IMG/VR virus record: IMGVR_UViG_3300031857_019776
Span: 1 to 27,545 of that record
Source: a virus
Length of the DNA: 27,545 bases
Direction: 5' to 3' (one strand)
In this document: positions 583-12,440 of the stretch, piece after piece
How positions within the stretch are numbered: position 1 is the first letter of the stretch
Layout: each line of letters starts with the position of its first letter
Made by a program: the position numbers and the translations under genes
Notes under the pieces: model-generated
What the model was told of the DNA's origin: nothing
Database searches by the model: none
Seen by the model: the letters and a program-made list of their open reading frames with translations, nothing else

Positions 583-2355
583 TTATCTTAAGTTATTAAT
601 TTTATTCATGATTTCTTCAACAATATCCCCTGAATTAAGGTTATCACCCATAACAGTTGCAATGTTTTGTTTTTTGTTATTAATCATGTCGTATATGATT
701 CCTTCTATTGTGTTTTCAAATATTGGGTAGTAAACTGATACTGAATTCTTTTGACCGTAACGATATGCTCTATCTTCAGCTTGTGATAAGTCACCTGGTA
801 CAAATGAAAGGTCATTTATAATAACCGCTTCAGCGGCGGTAAGAGTAATACCTACACCTGCTGCTTTAATATTACCAACAAACACTTTAATTTTATCATT
901 TTCTTGGAATTGGTCAACCGCATATTGTCTTTGAGGTTTTGTACAACTACCATCTAAATAAACCGCTTGTTTACCAAAGTGGTCTTTGATTTTATTTAAA
1001 GTTTCAGTGAAATTTGTAAAGATAATTACTTTTTTATCTTGGTCTAAAATATTTTGGGCAAGTTCTATTGTACTATTAACCTTTTCATCTGAGATAACTT
1101 GTCTCACTTTCATAAGTTTTGAAAATTGTACAGTTAATGATGATGATTCTTCTTTTTTATTATCGTACCAATTGTAATACTCACCCATCAAACCTTCATA
1201 TAATCTTGACTTCAATCTCAAATAAACGGGTGTAATGATTTTATCAGGTAAATCCAAGACATCTTCTTTTAATCTTCTCAAAACTTGTCTTGATGTTCTA
1301 TCTCTTAATTCTTCTAAATTAGATGCTCCTGTAACATTCCAAACTTTTCTATTTCCAGCTTTAAACTGATATCCTTGACAATATCTTATAGCATATGCCA
1401 TCCAATTTTGAGCAACAGGACTTTCAATTAAACTTAACAAATTAAAATAATTCATTGGTCTTGAAGTCATCGGAGTTCCCGTTAATAACCACAATCTATC
1501 AACCTTTTTTGAGAAATTATTAACTAATTTTGTTCTCTGAGCTTGTCCGTTTTGAACATAATGTGCCTCATCAATAATGATTAGGTCGGGATTGAATTGA
1601 TTAATTAAAGAGGTTTCTTTTTCTTTTAAATCGTAAAAATTCTTAAGAATATCATAGTTAACAATTACAAAATCGTGGTCTATTGAGAAGTTTTTACCCT
1701 CAGCAATATAAACACTTTTGTCAGTATAATTTTTAATCTCTCTTTCCCAATTTATTTTAAGTGATGCGGGACAAATGATTAGAATTTTCTTTGAACCCGT
1801 CTCTAATGATGCAATAATTGTTGAGGTAGTTTTACCAAGACCCATATCATCCGCCAAAATAAATCTTTTACTACCAACAAGTTTTTCAATCGCTTCTTTT
1901 TGGTGGTCTAACGGAGGTCTATGGGAATATTTTGAATAATCTATTGTTACCTTCTCAACAACATGAGTTTTAATTAACGCTCCCTTTGGTAACCAAAAAT
2001 CATGAATCTCTTCAGATTCAAATAGTTTACCCCAAATATGATAAGATTTCTCTTTTTCGGCTAATAATTTCTCAACCCAAACATTTTTAGGTATTTCAGT
2101 ATAAAGTTTTTCGTCGGCAATCTTCTTTGAGAAATAAGGGTCTAAATCAACCCATTTTTTGGCGACTTTTGGTTGTTTATCGTGGAAATTTATAATATAA
2201 TCTGATTGAGAACGTGTTAAATAAAACTTTTTACTTTTTTGAAGGTTCTTTTTTAATTTCAGAATATAATTATTTGCACCATCATAGCTTTCAAGAATTG
2301 ATAATGCTCTTGTTTCAACAGTATTTGGGATATTTGGAGTTGGTAAAAGTTCCAA
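583..2355 (-). CDS. SNF2-family DNA-dependent ATPase/helicase (SMARCAL1/HARP-like core)
   Basis: A 590-residue superfamily 2 translocase. All core motifs are present. Motif I is ADDMGLGKTT (about residues 168-177). Motif II is IIIDEAH (259-265). Motif III is LLTGTPM (290-296). The C-terminal RecA lobe has VIIFTNFTETL, GVGITLTAAEAVI and motif VI QAEDRAYRYGQ. The compact two-lobe form with an N-terminal region of about 145 residues resembles SMARCAL1/HARP-like proteins, which remodel branched or annealed DNA. In a phage this suggests replication-fork or recombination work like that of T4 UvsW, which is an inference. The start is unusual. No ATG precedes Walker A and an in-frame TAA lies just upstream, which makes TTG at 2355-2353 the most likely start. 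The gene diverges from the neck gene across a 47-nt gap and is followed by the dismutase gene. Confidence 0.9.
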   Translation of the reverse strand: MELLPTPNIPNTVETRALSILESYDGANNYILKLKKNLQKSKKFYLTRSQSDYIINFHDKQPKVAKKWVDLDPYFSKKIADEKLYTEIPKNVWVEKLLAEKEKSYHIWGKLFESEEIHDFWLPKGALIKTHVVEKVTIDYSKYSHRPPLDHQKEAIEKLVGSKRFILADDMGLGKTTSTIIASLETGSKKILIICPASLKINWEREIKNYTDKSVYIAEGKNFSIDHDFVIVNYDILKNFYDLKEKETSLINQFNPDLIIIDEAHYVQNGQAQRTKLVNNFSKKVDRLWLLTGTPMTSRPMNYFNLLSLIESPVAQNWMAYAIRYCQGYQFKAGNRKVWNVTGASNLEELRDRTSRQVLRRLKEDVLDLPDKIITPVYLRLKSRLYEGLMGEYYNWYDNKKEESSSLTVQFSKLMKVRQVISDEKVNSTIELAQNILDQDKKVIIFTNFTETLNKIKDHFGKQAVYLDGSCTKPQRQYAVDQFQENDKIKVFVGNIKAAGVGITLTAAEAVIINDLSFVPGDLSQAEDRAYRYGQKNSVSVYYPIFENTIEGIIYDMINNKKQNIATVMGDNLNSGDIVEEIMNKINNLR

Positions 2356-4240: not shown

Positions 4241-7200
4241 ATGGCATCTAACAGTAAAGTTTTTGTATCTCCAGGTGTTTACACATCTGAAGTAGACTTA
4301 AGTTTTGTTTCACAAAGTGTGGGTGTGACAACTTTAGGTATAGTAGGGGAAACTCTAAAAGGTCCAGCTTTTGAACCAATTTTCATCACAAGTTTTGATG
4401 AATTCTCTACTTACTTTGGTGGTACATCTCCTGAAAAGTTTGTGAATACACAAATCCCAAAATATGAAGCTGCGTATATCGCAAAATCATATTTACAACA
4501 ATCAAATCAATTATTTGTAACTAGAGTTTTAGGGTTATCAGGATATGACGCAGGACCATCTTGGTCTATTTATACTGTTGCGAATGTTGACCCAACAACT
4601 ATAGGATTCAAATGTATTAACGCAGAACCTGCTTCACCTGAAACAGATTGTGAACCAATTTGTTTGGAATATGAAACAATTCCTTACATTTTTGATTTTA
4701 CAGGTTGTACATCAGGAATTAATAGTATTTCATATACTTCTTCTTTACCTGATATTATACAATCGAAATTAACAACTCCATTTGAGTTATTCAACGGAAA
4801 TATATCAAGTATTGATTCAAATATTAAAAATCAAATTAATCAAGTAATTTTAAATAACTCATTAGTTAATACTTCTGTTTATTTTTATGGGGTGATTGAA
4901 GGTAACGATTATGATGGTTTGATTTCATCATACGGTACTACTGATTTAACAAATGTGTATGGTGTTGATGATGTAAGTTCGTCAACGGCTGATTTATCAG
5001 ACCCTAACAATGACCCATGGTTTTACTCATTATTTAATAATGTAGGTAATTCTGTTTATACAGGTTCATCATTCTATTCAACAATTGTTGATTTCGTAAC
5101 AACTTCAACTTCATCAAATTGTGCATCTTTTATAAACTATAGTGTTAGTGGTGTAACAGGTGGTATTAATTACAATACAAATACAATTAACGTTGTATTA
5201 CCATACGCAACTTTCTCAGCAGCGACATTAACAAATGTAATTAGTGATTTTAGTGCATGTACTACAGATATAACTGTTAGTTCAGTACCACAACAAAGTG
5301 GTGTGACTGTTAATGATTTTTCAAGTGGTTGTTTAACATATGTTTTAACATCTGAAGATTCTACAGTTATATCTAACTGGACAGTTTGTGTAACAATTGA
5401 GAATCCATGTAATCCAGCAACTGCAGGTAACACAGGTTCACAAAATGTTGGAAATATTGTAACATGTTATAGTGGTAGTGTAATGGGTACAATTTATGTG
5501 TATTCAGGAACTGCTTATACTGATTTTGACGATTTAGTAGTTGCGACTCTACGTTCAAGAGGTGTTGCAAATTATAATACTGATGACGGGGCAGTGTATG
5601 AAGTGTCAGGTTTATCTGATGTTCAAATGGTTTGTACAGGTCCTTATAGTGGAATTAGTACTAATCCATACGCAACATTTGGTATTAACATTACAGGTAA
5701 GACAGGTACTCAATATTTCTTTGAAACATCATTTACAAACTCTGACCCAAAATATATTTCTAAAGTATTTGGTTCTTCAAATTTTGGTAAACCTAAATCA
5801 ATTGTACCATTGTTTGTTGAAGAAAGATATCAAAATTTGTTAAATTATGGATACAAGAAAGGATATGTTAGAGGATTAAATTGTGAATTCATTTCTTTAC
5901 CTAATGCAAGACAAGGGGTTGATTCAACAACAATTGCTTGGTATTTAGAACAATATCAGTCACCAAGTTCTCCTTGGGTTGTTTCTGAGTTAAGAGGTAA
6001 TAAAGTTTACAACTTATTTAAATTCACAACAATTGCGGACGGTGATTCAGCGAATATTGAAGTTAAAATTTCAATCGCTAACATGTCGTTTAATAATGGT
6101 ACTTTTGACGTATTAGTTAGAGATTTCTTTGACACAGATGCAAATCCTGTTGTTTTAGAAAAATTCACTAATTGTAGCATGAATCCAACAGAAAATAACT
6201 TCATAGCTCAAAAAATTGGTACTGTTAACGGTGAATATCAATTAAACTCAAAATATGTAATGATAACTATGAACGAAGATGCACCAATAGATGCACTTCC
6301 TTGTGGTTTTGAGGGTTATTTAACAAGACAATACGCCGGAGCTAAATCACCATTCCCAATTTACAAAACTAAATATGACTATCCTGGTGAAGTTGTTTAT
6401 GACCAACCATTTGGTACTTCAACAGGAGCAAATGACGCAAATACAAGTCCTGGAGATAATGTTAGAAGAACTTATTTAGGTATTTCAGATACTATTGGTT
6501 ATGATGTTGATTTCTATAGTTATAAAGGAAAACAATTACCATTAGATATTTGTAATGATACTACAGGTGATGATTGGGCTTATTTTACCAGAGGTTATCA
6601 CATGGATATAAACGCTCAATCTATCTTAATACCTGCAGGATTTGCGACTGGAGGACAACCAGCGTTCTACGTTGGAGCATCTCCATTTACTAGTGACCCT
6701 GAATCGGCAGATAACCAATATTATAGATTATTTGCACGTAAATTCTCTCTTCTTTGTAATGGTGGATTTGATGGATGGGATATATATAGAGATTATAGAA
6801 CAAACCTTGATAGATTTGTTTTAGGTAAATCAGGTTATTTAAAAGGAGCTTGTACATCTATAAAATATCCTAACGCCTCAGGATGGGGAGCATTTAAACA
6901 AATTACTGTTGGAAACAATAGTACGGATTGGGCAAATACTGATTATTACGCATATTTGTTAGGACAACAAACTTTCGCTAATCCTGAATCTGTTAATATA
7001 AATGTGTTTGTTACACCTGGTATTGATTATATTAATAACTCAAACTTGGTTGAAGAAGCTATTGATATGATTGAGTATAACAGAGCTGACTCATTGTATA
7101 TTTGTACAACTCCTGACTACAATCTGTTTACAACAACAACTTCAGACCCCGCTGAAATAATTTACCCAACTGAAGCGGTTGATAGTTTAGATAATACTGG

Positions 7201-7828
7201 TATTGATTCTAACTACACCGCAACTTACTATCCTTGGGTACTTACAAGAGATTCGGTTAATAATACACAAATTTATATTCCAGCAACTGCTGAGGTATGT
7301 AGAAATTTAGCATTAACTGATAACATTGCTTATCCTTGGTTCGCAACCGCTGGTTATACTCGTGGTATAGTAAACGCGATTAAAGCTCGTAAAAAACTAA
7401 CCCAAGAGGATAGAGATACTCTTTATAAAGGAAGAATTAACCCAATTGCAACTTTCTCAGACGTAGGAACTGTAATTTGGGGTAATAAAACTCTTCAAGT
7501 TAAAGAATCCGCTCTTGATAGAATCAATGTAAGAAGATTGTTATTACAAGCTCGTAAGTTGATTTCGGCAGTTTCTGTGAGATTGTTGTTTGAACAAAAC
7601 GATTCTAAGGTAAGACAAGATTTCTTAAATGCGGTTAATCCAATATTAGACGCTATCAGAAGAGATAGAGGTTTATATGATTTCCGTGTAACTGTTTCTT
7701 CAGACACTTCTGATTTAGATAGAAATCAAATGACAGGTAAAATTTATATCAAACCAACTAAATCTTTAGAATTCATTGATATTACGTTCTACATTACTCC
7801 AACAGGAGCATCATTCGAAAATATCTAA
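4241..7828 (+). CDS. 18: Contractile tail sheath protein (T4 gp18-like, enlarged)
   Basis: A 1195-residue sheath subunit. The sheath contracts to drive the tube through the envelope. The N-terminus (VSPGVYTSEVD, then GIVGETLKGPAFEPIFI and FGG) matches the gp18 N-terminal domain. The C-terminus matches the conserved inner domain: WFATAGYTRGIV, FEQNDSKVRQDFLNAVNPIL, DRGLYDFRVT, then MTGKIYIKPTKSLEFIDI. T4 gp18 has 659 residues. Much of the extra length lies between about residues 120 and 500, a Ser/Thr/Asn-rich, beta-rich stretch with about 11 cysteines, unlike the flanks. It is probably one or more surface-exposed domains on the outside of the tail. The gene has its own leader with a TATTTAT box and ends in a strong terminator. 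The family call is firm. The function of the inserted domains is unknown. Confidence 0.95.
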   Translation: MASNSKVFVSPGVYTSEVDLSFVSQSVGVTTLGIVGETLKGPAFEPIFITSFDEFSTYFGGTSPEKFVNTQIPKYEAAYIAKSYLQQSNQLFVTRVLGLSGYDAGPSWSIYTVANVDPTTIGFKCINAEPASPETDCEPICLEYETIPYIFDFTGCTSGINSISYTSSLPDIIQSKLTTPFELFNGNISSIDSNIKNQINQVILNNSLVNTSVYFYGVIEGNDYDGLISSYGTTDLTNVYGVDDVSSSTADLSDPNNDPWFYSLFNNVGNSVYTGSSFYSTIVDFVTTSTSSNCASFINYSVSGVTGGINYNTNTINVVLPYATFSAATLTNVISDFSACTTDITVSSVPQQSGVTVNDFSSGCLTYVLTSEDSTVISNWTVCVTIENPCNPATAGNTGSQNVGNIVTCYSGSVMGTIYVYSGTAYTDFDDLVVATLRSRGVANYNTDDGAVYEVSGLSDVQMVCTGPYSGISTNPYATFGINITGKTGTQYFFETSFTNSDPKYISKVFGSSNFGKPKSIVPLFVEERYQNLLNYGYKKGYVRGLNCEFISLPNARQGVDSTTIAWYLEQYQSPSSPWVVSELRGNKVYNLFKFTTIADGDSANIEVKISIANMSFNNGTFDVLVRDFFDTDANPVVLEKFTNCSMNPTENNFIAQKIGTVNGEYQLNSKYVMITMNEDAPIDALPCGFEGYLTRQYAGAKSPFPIYKTKYDYPGEVVYDQPFGTSTGANDANTSPGDNVRRTYLGISDTIGYDVDFYSYKGKQLPLDICNDTTGDDWAYFTRGYHMDINAQSILIPAGFATGGQPAFYVGASPFTSDPESADNQYYRLFARKFSLLCNGGFDGWDIYRDYRTNLDRFVLGKSGYLKGACTSIKYPNASGWGAFKQITVGNNSTDWANTDYYAYLLGQQTFANPESVNINVFVTPGIDYINNSNLVEEAIDMIEYNRADSLYICTTPDYNLFTTTTSDPAEIIYPTEAVDSLDNTGIDSNYTATYYPWVLTRDSVNNTQIYIPATAEVCRNLALTDNIAYPWFATAGYTRGIVNAIKARKKLTQEDRDTLYKGRINPIATFSDVGTVIWGNKTLQVKESALDRINVRRLLLQARKLISAVSVRLLFEQNDSKVRQDFLNAVNPILDAIRRDRGLYDFRVTVSSDTSDLDRNQMTGKIYIKPTKSLEFIDITFYITPTGASFENI

Positions 7829-7884: not shown

Positions 7885-8685
7885 ATGAGAGTATATTTAA
7901 TTGAAAATATAAGAGAAGAATTTACACCTGATACTTTATATTATGCATTCGATTGGGATGATAATATCTTAAGTATGCCAACTCAAATTGTTCTTATGGA
8001 TGATAATGGTGAGGAGGTTTTGATGTCAACTGAAGATTATGCGAAATATCGTTCTAAAATTGGGGTTGAACCATTTAAATACAAAGGTAAATCAGTTGTT
8101 GGATACGCCGATGACGCTTATCGATTTTTTTCTACAAAGGGTGATAAAAGATTTTTAATGGATGTGATGTTTGCAAATGAAGGTCCTGAATGGGATAAAT
8201 TTGTTAATACAGTAAATAATGGTTCTATTTTTGCAATTGTTACAGCTCGTGGTCATAGTCCTTTGGTTATTAGAAAGGCAATCGAAATGATGATTGATTC
8301 AAATTATAAGGGTATTGATAAAAAAGAACTTGTTAAAAATTTAAGAAAATTTCGTGAGTTTGCTGAAGAAGACGATATGAGTGACGAAGAATTAATTGAA
8401 TCTTACATGGATATGAATAAATATTATCCAGTAACTTACAATAGTGGTTCAGCCGCAAAACCTGAAAAGTTAAAAGTGGAAGCTTTAAAAGAATTTTGGA
8501 ATTATGTAAATTATATATCAGGAGTTTTACATAAACCAGCATATATTAAAAACCTTATTTCAAATAGATTTGTACCTAAAGTTGTATTTTCAGATGATGA
8601 TAAGAAAAATATTGAATACGCTTCTGAAAAATTACCAGGAAAAAAATTTGATTTTGTATTAACTCAAAAACAAGAGAATAGCTAA
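7885..8685 (+). CDS. HAD-superfamily phosphatase-like protein
   Basis: A 266-residue cytosolic protein with the three visible HAD motifs. Motif I is FDWDDN (nucleophile Asp23 and acid/base Asp25). Motif II is FAIVTARGHSP (Thr120). Motif III is VVFSDDDKKN (Asp237-Asp239). A helical cap-like insert fills about residues 125-220. HAD enzymes use the first Asp to form a phospho-aspartate intermediate. Phage members include the 3'-phosphatase domain of T4 polynucleotide kinase, but no kinase domain is present here, so the substrate (nucleotide, nucleic-acid end or protein) is open. The gene is inserted between sheath and tube genes, which are adjacent in T4, and follows the sheath terminator by 12 nt. 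The superfamily call is good and the substrate is unknown. Confidence 0.75.
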   Translation: MRVYLIENIREEFTPDTLYYAFDWDDNILSMPTQIVLMDDNGEEVLMSTEDYAKYRSKIGVEPFKYKGKSVVGYADDAYRFFSTKGDKRFLMDVMFANEGPEWDKFVNTVNNGSIFAIVTARGHSPLVIRKAIEMMIDSNYKGIDKKELVKNLRKFREFAEEDDMSDEELIESYMDMNKYYPVTYNSGSAAKPEKLKVEALKEFWNYVNYISGVLHKPAYIKNLISNRFVPKVVFSDDDKKNIEYASEKLPGKKFDFVLTQKQENS

Positions 8686-8795: not shown

Positions 8796-9284
8796 ATGGC
8801 TGATTTACTGATGAAAATGCCTATACCTTATGAACCGAAAAGAGTAAATAGGTTTATATTAAGGTTTGATTCAACTTTGGGAATTAATGAATGGTTTGTA
8901 GAGTCTGCAGCAAGACCTAGTATCAAAATTAACTCCGTACCAATCCCCTTTTTGAATACTGAAACATATGTTGCAGGAAGATTCAACTGGAACACTATCT
9001 CTGTCAAGTTTAGAGACCCAATAGGACCTTCAGCTTCACAAGCGTTAATGGAATGGGTTAGATTATGTGCAGAGTCTGTAACAGGTCGTATGGGTTATGC
9101 TGCGGGATATAAGAAAAATGTTGATTTAGAGATGTTAGACCCAACAGGAGTTGTTGTTGAAAAATGGGTGTTAGAAGGTACGTGGATTGAATCAGCAAAC
9201 TTTGATACATTAGCTTATGGTCAAGATGGTTTAGCGACAATTACAACATCTTTGAGAATGGACCGTTGTATACTTGTATACTAA
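8796..9284 (+). CDS. 19: Tail tube protein (T4 gp19-like)
   Basis: A 162-residue protein, nearly the same length as T4 gp19 (163 aa), which stacks as hexamer rings to form the inner tube that conducts DNA. Features fit the tube fold: RFILRFDSTLGINEWFVESAA early, then PIPFLNTETYVAG and WNTISVKFRD (compare gp19 'PVGFMNRKINVAG' and 'WTVTVMND'), a central helix with ALMEWVRLCAE, then EMLDPTGVVVEKWVLEGTWI and a final strand TSLRMDRCILVY. It lies downstream of the sheath gene, split from it by the HAD gene. It has its own A/T-only leader and is followed by a 16-bp-stem terminator, which suits an abundant late product. Confidence 0.9.
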   Translation: MADLLMKMPIPYEPKRVNRFILRFDSTLGINEWFVESAARPSIKINSVPIPFLNTETYVAGRFNWNTISVKFRDPIGPSASQALMEWVRLCAESVTGRMGYAAGYKKNVDLEMLDPTGVVVEKWVLEGTWIESANFDTLAYGQDGLATITTSLRMDRCILVY

Positions 9285-9304: not shown

Positions 9305-9344
9305 AAAAAAGTTTCTTTATTACTCTTTATAAAGAAACTTTTTT
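9305..9344 (+). terminator. Intrinsic terminator after tail tube gene
   Basis: A perfect 16-bp stem, AAAAAAGTTTCTTTAT paired with ATAAAGAAACTTTTTT, with loop TACTCTTT and a T-run. The flanking A-run would also let it work on the opposite strand, though no minus-strand gene ends here. The next small gene begins 16 nt later. Confidence 0.85.
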
Positions 9345-9360
9345 ATTTTAATATATTCAT

Positions 9361-9495
9361 ATGGATAATTTAAGTGGTTTTACATGTGAAACATGTGGAA
9401 AAGTGTTTGAATCTGAAGAAGAATTTGAAAATAGACACAATGAAAGATATACAAAATTAAATCAACCAAAGTCTAAAAAAAATGTTGATTTATAG
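9361..9495 (+). CDS. 44-aa C2H2-zinc-finger-like microprotein
   Basis: A short gene running from ATG 9361 to TAG 9495. Residues 7-30 read FTCETCGKVFESEEEF and then NRHNERY. The spacing C-x2-C-x3-F-x5-F-x2-H is exactly that of a classical C2H2 zinc finger, with ligands Cys9, Cys12 and His25. The fourth ligand, expected 3-5 residues after His25, is not there, because the following residues are NERYTK. The tail is Lys/Asn-rich. It may bind zinc with three protein ligands or complete the site by dimerisation, or it may be degenerate. It lies 16 nt after the tube terminator and 32 nt before the gp26-like gene. No SD sequence precedes it. The role is unknown, with DNA or protein binding most likely. 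Confidence 0.65.
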   Translation: MDNLSGFTCETCGKVFESEEEFENRHNERYTKLNQPKSKKNVDL

Positions 9496-9527: not shown

Positions 9528-10283
9528 ATGGAACCAAATGTTTATACCGCAGGTCAAGAAAATTTTAATCTACCTCACGATTTATTAAAACTACCTACTG
9601 AAGGTAAATTTTATAAAACAAAAAAGAAAAGTGTTAAAATAGGATACTTAACCGCTAACGATGAAAATATACTAATATCAGGTTTAAATAACTCTCAACA
9701 ACTTATATTGAACTTATTAAGAAGTAAAATATATGAACACGATATTAGACCTGAAAATTTAATAGATTCTGATGTTGAAGCAATTCTTATCTTTTTGAGA
9801 AATACATCATTTGGTCCGGAGTATAAATTTGATGTAATTGATACTAAAACTGGTAAGAAATTTGAAACTACAATTTTATTAGATGAGTTAGAATTTAAAA
9901 AAGTTGAAAATTTCCCATCAGAAGATGGTACTTTTACCGTTAAATTACCAAAATCACAGTCAACTGTAAAAATTAGACCATTAACTTTTGGTGAAAATTT
10001 AGAGATTGATAAAATGGTTGAATCGTATCCGACAGGAAGAGTAGCTCCAAAAATAACTTGGAGATTACAAAAACAAATTGTTGATGTTGAGGGTAATTCT
10101 GAACTTGGTTTTATTAGTAAATTTATATCAGAGTTACCTATCATGGATTCTAAGTTTATTAGAAATTTTTTATTGGAAAATGTTCCATCACTCGATTTAA
10201 GAAAAAAAGTAAAAACCCCATCAGGAGATATGGTTGACATCGATGTCAATCTGGGGGTTGAGTTTTTTCGCCCTTTCTTCTAA
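9528..10283 (+). CDS. 26: gp26-like baseplate-hub/tail-assembly protein (chaperone candidate)
   Basis: A 251-residue soluble protein. The pattern LPTEGKFY, VKIGYLTANDENIL, DVEAILIFLRNTSFGPEY, then TGKKFETTILLDELEF and DGTFTVKLP matches the T4 gp26 baseplate family as found in T4-like phages. It sits just before the tape-measure gene, the place of tail assembly chaperones in contractile and long-tailed phages. Its 3' end (VEFFRPFF) contains a T6-C tract at 10263-10269, after which the +1 frame stays open to 10431. This suggests that a second, longer product of about 300 residues is made by frameshifting (see separate entry). The start ATG overlaps a TATTTAT heptamer (9523-9529), and no closer alternative start exists. 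The family call is good. Whether it acts as hub component or chaperone is unresolved. Confidence 0.75.
   Translation: MEPNVYTAGQENFNLPHDLLKLPTEGKFYKTKKKSVKIGYLTANDENILISGLNNSQQLILNLLRSKIYEHDIRPENLIDSDVEAILIFLRNTSFGPEYKFDVIDTKTGKKFETTILLDELEFKKVENFPSEDGTFTVKLPKSQSTVKIRPLTFGENLEIDKMVESYPTGRVAPKITWRLQKQIVDVEGNSELGFISKFISELPIMDSKFIRNFLLENVPSLDLRKKVKTPSGDMVDIDVNLGVEFFRPFF
10263..10269 (+). promoter_or_regulatory. Candidate ribosomal frameshift site T TTT TTC in gp26-like gene
   Basis: In the zero frame the codons are GAG TTT TTT CGC. A +1 slip moves Phe-tRNA from TTT to TTC, which the same tRNA reads, and continues with GCC. A -2 slip reaches the same frame. Phage Mu uses a comparable homopolymer tract for its tail chaperone. 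A weak 6-bp stem, ATTAGA with TCTAAT at 10299-10319, lies about 30 nt downstream. This is inferred from sequence only. Confidence 0.45.
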
Positions 10284-10431
10284 TCACAGAACTTATTTAT
10301 TAGACGGATATTATCTAATGTCTAAATTTTTAAGTACATCATATTCCGATTATATGTCTATGCCGACTTATTCAAGGGAATATCTTATTTCTCAAATCAT
10401 AAAGCATAATACTCCAAAAAGTGATGGATAA
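10270..10431 (+). CDS. +1-frame extension of gp26-like protein (tail-assembly-chaperone C-terminal part)
   Basis: The frame is open from before the zero-frame stop (10281-10283) to TAA 10429-10431. Entered at 10270 it adds about 53 residues, ALSSNHRTYLLDGYY followed by SYSDYMSMPTYSREYLISQI. The 'S-x-x-[DE]-Y-x-x-M-P-x-Y-x-R-[EK]-x-L-I' pattern resembles the C-terminal T part of G/GT-type tail chaperones, which is made only by frameshifting and recruits the tape measure. It ends 20 nt before the tape-measure ATG. Alternative: independent translation from the ATG at 10318 gives a 37-residue protein. The strong in-frame conservation-like pattern upstream of that ATG (NHRTYLLDGYYL) favours fusion by frameshift, as does the lack of any leader for a separate gene. 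Confidence 0.55.
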   Translation, partial: ALSSNHRTYLLDGYYLMSKFLSTSYSDYMSMPTYSREYLISQIIKHNTPKSDG

Positions 10432-10451: not shown

Positions 10452-12440
10452 ATGTTTAGTAACGGTGACGAATTAAATTATAAATCTCTTTATGAGGACC
10501 TTGATAAAAAGATAAAAGGATTAACCGCTCAAAAATCTGAGGACGCGACATCTATAACAGATGCGTTGACAAAATTTGCACAAAGGTTAGAGACAAATTT
10601 TAATCCTGATAGGATTCAGGAAGCAATGTATGATTTGGATAAAACAAGTTATTCAATTGCTAAAAGTTTTGGTGAAAGTGATTTTAGATTAAATGCTATT
10701 AAATCAAGTTTAACTGATGCTTATGTTTCAGTTGCTAAAATTGGTGGTAGTTGGAAAGATATTACTGATACTCAAACTACGTTAATGCAAACATTAGGTA
10801 GGAATGTAATTGTAAGTTCTGATATTATATCAGATTTTATTGCGACACAAAAAGTAACTGGTGTAAATGCTCAAACGTTATCTGATAATTTTAAAAACAT
10901 AGGTATTTCTATGGGTCAAGTAGGAGACCAAATGTTGGGGGTAATGGATAAGGCAAAAAGTTTAGGAGTAAACGCCCAAGCGGTTTCATCTGTTGTTGTT
11001 GCAAATCTTGAGTCATTAAATAAATATAACTTTGAAGGAGGAATTGACGGTTTGGCTGAAATGGCCGCTCAAACAGTTTCAATGAGAGTTAATATGAAGG
11101 ATATGTTTAGCTTCGCGGAAAAAGTATTTAACCCTGAGGGGGCCATAAATATGGCGGCGGCTCTACAAAGATTAGGGGTAACTCAAAGTAGTTTATTAGA
11201 CCCACTGACACTCTTAGATTTATCTCAAAATGACCCTGCTGAATTAACTAATCAAGTTGTAGAAATGACAAAATCATTTGTCAAACTTAATGAAGCGGGT
11301 AATTTTGAAATTGCAAAAGGAGCTAAACGTCAATTAAGAGAGATTTCAGAAGCAACCTCAATACCATATGAAACATTAACTAAAATGGCTTTAGCTAGTG
11401 TTGAATTAGATGATAAATTACAAAGAATTAAATTCCCGAGTGATTTTGCAAATGATGATGACAGAAAATTAATTGCTAATTTAGCTGAAAAAGGAAAAGA
11501 TGGAACATATAATATAACATTTACTGATAAAGACGGTAAAACAGTAACTGAAGCGGTAGATAACTTAAATCAAGAACAATTAAGTTTTTTAGCACAAAAA
11601 GAAAAAGAAAGACCTAAAACAATGGAGGAGTTTGCTGAAAAACAATTGGATACTTTAGGTAGTATAAATGCCTCTTTAAACCGTGTAACTAATATTATAC
11701 CATTGGCACTTGCTGGTTCAACTATTTCTACAGATTTGTTAAGTGTTGGTAAAAATTTTATAAAAGGTATGGCTGAAATTATACCTACAGAAACTGTTGC
11801 AAGTACTAAACAATTGAGGGTGATGTTTGATGAATCAGCGTCTGATTTAAGTACCGCTATTAATAAAATAGCATCAGGTGATGGAGGTCTTTCGGACCTA
11901 GGAGATGCTATGGGTAAAGTTATAACTAAAATTTCTGGAAAAGGAGCGGAAACTTTTTTAACATCTATAGATAATGCCGCGACAAGTTTATCAAATTTAA
12001 CAGAAAGTTCAAACGGTTTAGTTAAATTAGTAGGACAATCTTTACAAAAAGTTCCTGGATATGAAAAATTAATAGAAGAATCTAAAAATTTAACAGATAA
12101 TCAAACAGTAGAAAGTAAAAATGAAACTATTACTGTAAAACCGAAAGATTTTATTTTACAAACTTATGATGAAGATTTTCTTGTTGCTGGAGGCACAAGA
12201 TTAGGGGAAAACACAATAGAAACTAATAAAAATTCAACATCAGAACAAATACATACGATTAATTTAAATATTTCAGCTCCAAATGGAATGAATGAGACAC
12301 AGTTTAATGACTCTTTATTCGTACAAGAAATAACTAAAAGTATTGAAGGAGTTCTTACTGCAAATGGTTTATTAAGTCCTGGCGGAAGATTACCTTCACC
12401 AAATACAAATTTTCAAACAACACGTAATAAGAAAAAATAA
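10452..12440 (+). CDS. Tape measure protein
   Basis: A 662-residue, mostly helical protein. Long stretches of small and polar residues (SIAKSFGESDFRLNAIKSSL, SISMGQVGD-type repeats and NAQAVSSVVVANLESLN) and a central hydrophobic segment, TNIIPLALAGSTISTDLL (about 415-432), are typical of tail-length rulers that fill the tube before DNA passage. The segment with EKVFNPEGAINMAAALQRLG (about 225-245) looks like the conserved core. It lies directly after the putative chaperone pair and before the baseplate genes, as expected. Tail rulers scale at roughly 0.15 nm per residue, which predicts a tail of about 100 nm, similar to T4, whose ruler gp29 has 590 residues. The C-terminus is basic (TTRNKKK). 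The role is well supported by context, and no enzymatic domain was seen. Confidence 0.8.
   Translation: MFSNGDELNYKSLYEDLDKKIKGLTAQKSEDATSITDALTKFAQRLETNFNPDRIQEAMYDLDKTSYSIAKSFGESDFRLNAIKSSLTDAYVSVAKIGGSWKDITDTQTTLMQTLGRNVIVSSDIISDFIATQKVTGVNAQTLSDNFKNIGISMGQVGDQMLGVMDKAKSLGVNAQAVSSVVVANLESLNKYNFEGGIDGLAEMAAQTVSMRVNMKDMFSFAEKVFNPEGAINMAAALQRLGVTQSSLLDPLTLLDLSQNDPAELTNQVVEMTKSFVKLNEAGNFEIAKGAKRQLREISEATSIPYETLTKMALASVELDDKLQRIKFPSDFANDDDRKLIANLAEKGKDGTYNITFTDKDGKTVTEAVDNLNQEQLSFLAQKEKERPKTMEEFAEKQLDTLGSINASLNRVTNIIPLALAGSTISTDLLSVGKNFIKGMAEIIPTETVASTKQLRVMFDESASDLSTAINKIASGDGGLSDLGDAMGKVITKISGKGAETFLTSIDNAATSLSNLTESSNGLVKLVGQSLQKVPGYEKLIEESKNLTDNQTVESKNETITVKPKDFILQTYDEDFLVAGGTRLGENTIETNKNSTSEQIHTINLNISAPNGMNETQFNDSLFVQEITKSIEGVLTANGLLSPGGRLPSPNTNFQTTRNKKK

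Follow-up and report, generated by a model that had tools for sequence, protein, structure and literature searches.

In phage lambda, the gene lying between the tail tube and tape-measure genes gives rise to a short chaperone, gpG, and to an extended form, gpGT, produced by a -1 shift near the stop codon of the short frame that adds a short C-terminal domain. Reviews describe this G-T frameshifting as conserved "except T4". In T4, the hub assembly chaperones gp26 and gp51 are encoded by separate genes, with neither a frameshift nor an overlapping frame after gp26, and gp51 is presented in reviews as essential and of unknown function. No report of a frameshift in gp26 or gp51 was found in the literature, the search being limited to open-access papers. 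A +1 slip of the P-site tRNA is found in prfB, which encodes RF2: the site is CUU-UGA, the UGA makes a slow A site, and a Shine-Dalgarno duplex between mRNA and rRNA, placed 3 nt upstream, adjoins the E site.

The window analyzed here, i.e., the whole stretch of 27,545 nucleotides of the viral record IMGVR_UViG_3300031857_019776, carries a gp26-like gene resembling the lambda locus in its position between the tube gene and a probable tape-measure gene and in its layout, with a short form and a putative extended form, a shift near the stop, and a short C-terminal domain added. Unlike in lambda, the putative shift is +1 rather than -1, and the site combines an upstream hairpin with a Phe-tRNA site bearing a rare Arg codon. 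The preferred reading, to which a probability of about 0.88 is given, is that some ribosomes slip +1 at GAG TTT TTT CGC with the help of the hairpin, yielding a short and a long chaperone. The making of the fusion and its function as a chaperone are inferred, as no peptide or reporter data are available.

Gene order and overlapping frames

The features of the locus are as follows.

8796..9284 (+): tail tube protein, gp19-like, upstream neighbor (phrog_4542 tail tube, E 2.3e-24)
9528..10283 (+): gp26-like gene, 0 frame, 251 aa, short form "G" (PF12322 and phrog_150 profile matches)
10214..10220 (+): 5' arm of the hairpin, AACCCCA, conserved core RCCCCR (RNAalifold, pair counts)
10253..10259 (+): 3' arm of the hairpin, GGGGGTT, conserved core TGGGGY (GGG codon bias, RNAalifold, pair counts)
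10260..10271 (+): putative shift site GAG TTT TTT CGC, the +1 frame resuming at the GC; P-site re-pairing from TTT to TTC, rare Arg CGN in the A site
10270..10431 (+): extension in the +1 frame (53 codons and a stop), the "T" domain corresponding to the C-terminus of T4 gp51 (conservation, dN/dS, hhalign)
10452..12440 (+): probable tape-measure gene, downstream neighbor (position only)

In profile searches, the gp26-like gene matches PF12322 (T4_baseplate) with an E-value of 2.8e-9 and 37.4 bits, above the curated cut-off of 24.5, and phrog_150 (baseplate hub) with an E-value of 8.2e-12, which places it in the T4 gp26 family. The ends of the two PF12322 proteins are also alike, T4 gp26 terminating in EFFELL* and the short form of the window (9528-10283) in GVEFFRPFF*. 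No stop interrupts the +1 frame across the tract before 10429-10431, and the 0 frame fused to the extension computes to 300 aa. The first-pass annotation had pointed out this overlap, which is confirmed and proves larger than first described, and had predicted a product of about 300 aa, in agreement with the computed length of the inferred fusion. Its listed start, 10234, does not hold as a gene start, being merely where the open +1 frame has its first TTG; the meaningful extension runs from 10270. Its placing of the gene between tube and tape measure is retained, the tube being identified by profile and the tape measure by position only. Indeed, no family match was obtained for 10452..12440 in Pfam/PHROG-type profile searches, and the tape-measure gene occupies the equivalent position in immuto and LIS04, and stands one small gene further on in Cr30.

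The locus shows two marks of the G/GT mode, a gene order of tube, gp26-like gene and probable tape measure (by position, as in immuto and LIS04) and a second frame that overlaps at a slippery site without a start of its own. Membership by descent of the lambda-type chaperone family is not met, with no sequence match in profile searches and no fold match in the PDB; as the fold has no PDB match, no structural link to lambda-type chaperones is drawn. The A-site codon of the shift site is among the rarest in the window, CGC being used once and CGG never in the 7,996 codons of its main genes. Since the host is not known, the term "rare codon" rests on phage codon usage only.

Besides this locus, the window displays other features of note. 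Between the tube and gp26 genes, the inverted repeat AGTTTCTTTAT/ATAAAGAAACT with a T run after it (9305-9350, +) is likely a terminator, and an annotated terminator stands at the equivalent place in SP-15; further on lies a small 44-aa ORF (9361-9495, +) that carries the zinc-finger-like motif CETCGKVFESEEEFENRH. The tail sheath protein (4241-7828, +) is very long, with 1,195 aa and sheath domains only in the last ~300 residues. Between the sheath and tube genes lies a gene for a 266-aa protein (7885-8685, +) without Pfam match, whose start, AFDWDDNIL, resembles a HAD phosphatase motif. On the strand opposite the tail genes, an SNF2-family helicase gene is found at 583-2355 (-), and a Fe/Mn superoxide dismutase gene with both domains (2-544, -) runs off the end at the contig edge.

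A pattern scan found the 20-nt element GGGGNNGARTTTTTTCGNCC in at least 120 viral contigs. Among the matches listed, all 120 fetched loci show a gp26-like upstream ORF, a short 0-frame tail that begins with EFFRP and stops within a few codons, and a conserved +1 extension, roughly 46-63 aa long and marked by the motif LSSxYR...LDExYyL...SYsD...MPtYxRKYlI, cut short at some loci where the contig ends. Bacterial and archaeal genomes totaling 257 Gb gave 81 scattered chance matches to the same element, none with gp26 context. The tract and the +1 frame were already present in five protein-level relatives; a search with every synonymous spelling of G-[AV]-E-F-F-R-P-F mostly returned the same site, and a scan for non-GGG Gly codons gave 58 stretches, only three of which lay elsewhere than at the gp26 site. 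Judged by these comparisons, the shift-site overlap is far beyond chance. As homopolymers are prone to error and the sequence comes from a metagenome, the overlap might be put down to faulty assembly or sequencing, or to a frame open by chance; the same overlap in at least 120 contigs, equivalent overlaps in complete genomes of cultured phages and the dN/dS of the extension (0.40) leave this explanation a negligible weight.

Codon choice, hairpin and direction of the putative shift

Codons were counted in 93 non-redundant relatives. The second Phe codon is TTT in all 93, and Arg is CGN in all of them and never AGR, whereas 88% AGR would be expected from background. Gly is encoded by GGG in 89/93 (10% expected, p 9e-82), Ala at codon -17 by GCC in 74 of 76 cases (11% expected, p 1e-67), and codon -16 is CCG in 65/93. 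At the level of codon statistics, this choice shows selection on the RNA at the tract, which is constrained far beyond coding need; 3' of the slip site, the constraint is ascribed to double coding (RPFF and xLSS). Both the joint conservation of the T6-C tract with the +1 frame and the synonymous-site constraint, proposed as checks by the first-pass annotation, are thus found, the former at 120/120 loci among the matches listed and the latter in the 93 relatives.

In the relatives of the window's family, TTT TTT is invariably followed by C, which is what a +1 re-pairing from TTT to TTC needs. Two lineages (L216/L218 and L221) read TTC TTT CGN, where a -2 slip is unable to re-pair. Because of these lineages and of the invariant C, +1 is favored over -2, a leaning drawn from relatives, the direction in the window itself being inferred. 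In a -2 shift, the Phe-tRNA would move back two bases within the T6 run and one extra Phe would be incorporated. The tract TTTTTTCGN has the shape of the phage Mu site, a homopolymeric hexamer before CGN. Shifting by -2 is established in Mu (PMC5009743), and TTT TTT AGT at the gp26 end of Listeria phage LIS04 (L289) suits -2 better than +1, for which re-pairing is poor. A -2 shift has, however, no need for the invariant C, and it could not re-pair in the TTC TTT CGN lineages, nor at TTC TTT CGT, AAC TTT CTA or TTT CTT TGG in distant relatives. The requirement for a homopolymeric hexamer that marks the Mu type is not met, the hexamer being dispensable in these TTC TTT variants. The -2 shift is accordingly held to be unlikely. 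On the direction, left between +1 and -2 by the first-pass annotation, the evidence leans to +1; -2 fails where lineages carry TTC TTT CGN and remains possible at the T6 tract of the window itself.

The presence of a homopolymer run also brings to mind slippage of RNA polymerase on the T6 tract as the source of the second frame. In the TTC TTT lineages, however, the run is of three T only, and polymerase slippage gives no role to the upstream hairpin or to the CGN constraint, so that it appears very improbable.

An RNA hairpin that is conserved among relatives ends shortly 5' of the slip site, the end of its conserved stem being separated by 4 nt from the E-site codon and by 7 nt from the P-site codon. 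The GGGGY of codons -4 and -3 has its complement in codons -17 and -16, and relatives with GGT for Gly mostly have A as the last base of codon -17, a C-G pair becoming A-U at two synonymous positions. The stem was recovered unprompted and independently by RNAalifold. Pairing reaches 93.6% of cells (44 sequences) versus at most 58.3% for slid registers, and none of 500 shuffles attains the observed stem pairing or covariation score, these statistics being limited by the relatedness of the sequences. The stem appears in the predicted fold of 92/101 relatives (median z -2.04); in the window, the hairpin folds at -16.9 kcal/mol (z -2.09) and the outermost conserved pair, 10220/10253, is a non-standard A-G. 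Independent compensatory changes on the tree number two for the stem, none against and one neutral, in a test with low power; beyond these two changes, the evidence for the stem, as read from the alignment, is conservation. Downstream of the slip site, no structure was found in 101 relatives (z -0.03).

Hairpins adjoining the E site raise +1 and lower -1 shifting in a 70S system with designed constructs (PMC6321510); by analogy, a stimulatory role is inferred for the hairpin at this site. The resemblance to prfB lies in the +1 slip of the P-site tRNA, the slow A site and the upstream duplex adjoining the E site. The site is nevertheless not of the prfB type, as TTT-CGC with a hairpin stands in place of CUU-UGA with its Shine-Dalgarno sequence, the slow codon is a rare sense codon instead of UGA, the duplex is an intramolecular hairpin instead of an mRNA-rRNA duplex, and no autoregulation is implied.

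Two other roles for this region were considered. A Shine-Dalgarno function as the main role of GGGG was rejected, as the wobble base co-varies with codon -17 and the spacing is unlike that of prfB. A pseudoknot between TCAGGAG and the downstream CCTTTCTTC was set aside without a formal test, as double coding explains the downstream constraint and no downstream structure was found.

The extension and its counterparts in T4-like phages

The extension has a median dN/dS of 0.40 over 3,028 pairs and is, by this measure, under purifying selection. In the 97 extensions of the window's clade, no conserved start codon was found: nine lack Met, and elsewhere the first Met falls anywhere from residue 4 to 39. 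The +1 frame 5' of the slip site contains only GTG or TTG codons in 64 cases, an ATG in 24 and none of these in nine. The downstream frame is therefore conserved as protein without its own conserved start, as expected by the first-pass annotation, whose proposal that programmed frameshifting in a gene of the T4 gp26 family yields a G/GT-type pair receives strong support from the comparative evidence, the spanning product remaining inferred. Absent from that annotation were the upstream hairpin, the kinship between the extension and T4 gp51, and the spread through T4-like phages.

By hhalign, the extension matches the C-terminus of T4/44RR gp51 together with T4-like extensions with a probability of 94.3% (E 1e-7), versus 2.2% at most for the shuffled-column control, and phrog_634 matches 5/51 fused relatives (best E 0.0018). 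On these profile comparisons, the extension and the gp51 C-terminal domain of T4 are homologous. The succession of a PF12322 domain and a gp51 C-terminal domain seen in one chain of T4 gp51 is thus met at the level of sequence, the fused chain itself being inferred. A structure was modeled for the relative L080, a CGG variant (41-sequence alignment A2), and not for the window's own fused protein. This fused model (pLDDT 84.5, pTM 0.78) predicts three helices within the extension, at residues 254-269, 273-278 and 281-295. The PDB, searched by profile and by fold (Foldseek, L080 model), gave no match other than weak unrelated ones, whereas the model matches many predicted phage baseplate hub or hub assembly proteins (best E 1.8e-32).

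T4 gp26 and gp51 both belong to PF12322 (8.8e-64 and 3.9e-52, respectively), gp51 being longer, with a C-terminal part that matches phrog_634. This same profile matches an out-of-frame stretch after gp26 in eight phages, S-PM2, P-SSM2, KVP40, HTVC008M, S-CRM01, Cr30, phiM12 and phiW-14 (E 1e-32 to 6e-6). Putative shift sites at the gp26 end fall into three types.

T TTT TTC (-1): P-SSM2, S-PM2, phiW-14, Atu_ph07, Cassandra, KVP40, S-CRM01
T TTT TTT (-1): Cr30, phiM12, XacN1, HTVC008M
+1-type sites: SP-15, GXN1, immuto, LR756508, MelJY01, RM378

The out-of-frame arrangement occurs in most of the T4-like viruses checked, and phages with a single copy (cyanophages, KVP40, Cr30, phiM12, SP-15 and others) carry the extension at -1 or +1; Atu_ph07, Cassandra and MelJY01, in which copies were not counted, are left out of the single-copy set. 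Immuto falls below the PF12322 threshold and was recovered by tblastn and phrog_150. SP-15, a close relative of LIS04, reads TTT TTT CAC at the gp26 end. T4 and 44RR display two PF12322 copies without an overlapping extension, whereas KVP40, of T4's own family, has one copy, so that the gene split, as far as copy number tells, probably arose within that family. In Campylobacter phage NCTC12673 (L303, L306), two adjacent PF12322 stretches are found, with a weak gp51-type match in the second, possibly an independent split.

Cyanophages, KVP40 and Cr30 thus share with the window a single PF12322 gene with an out-of-frame gp51-like domain at a T-run, and differ from it in their -1 sites, in a two-gene annotation and in that reinitiation is not excluded. 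Indeed, in S-PM2, P-SSM2, KVP40 and Cr30, the extension is annotated as a CDS of its own, "gp51" or "baseplate hub assembly catalyst", and the KVP40 record likens it to a 40-residue stretch of the T4 gp51 C-terminus. In S-PM2 and P-SSM2, this CDS begins directly after the gp26 stop; because an ATG follows this stop, a reinitiated small protein is not excluded in cyanophages. Such records would suit an extension made as a separate small protein, from its own start or by termination-reinitiation. In the window's clade, this is unlikely and carries only slight weight, since no start is conserved, the constraint on the tract far exceeds coding need, and T4 gp51 has the domain fused to a PF12322 domain.

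A proposed pathway and its bearing on T4

Under the +1 frameshifting reading, the majority of ribosomes would terminate at the 0-frame stop and release the 251-aa short form, while a minority would wait at GAG TTT TTT CGC for the rare Arg codon. The peptidyl-tRNA-Phe would then move one base forward, from TTT to TTC, assisted by the mRNA hairpin that may refold behind the ribosome and adjoin the E site. Shifted ribosomes would continue in the +1 frame to the 300-aa long form with its predicted helical C-terminal domain. The roles of the two forms, including what they bind, are inferred by analogy with the lambda pair G and GT: the part common to both would coat the tape-measure protein, tube subunits would be brought in by the added domain, and both forms would leave before the tail is finished.

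For the superfamily as a whole, it appears likely, with less assurance than for the window itself, that the ancestral tail chaperone of T4-like phages was a single PF12322 gene producing G and GT by frameshifting, with a shift direction (+1, -1, perhaps -2) that depends on the lineage. T4 and its close relatives would have duplicated it, the short form remaining with gene 26 and the long form with gene 51, while in the window's clade an mRNA hairpin would replace the Shine-Dalgarno duplex. The conserved upstream hairpin would then be a natural case of the element studied in designed constructs (PMC6321510). If gp26 and gp51 are indeed G and GT split into two genes, the T4 exception vanishes, and many T4-like genomes, in which the extension was missed or called a separate gp51, would need their annotation corrected. 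Such a split would also explain gp51, the "essential protein of unknown function", whose role would be the loading of tube subunits onto the tape measure, a proposal that is testable.
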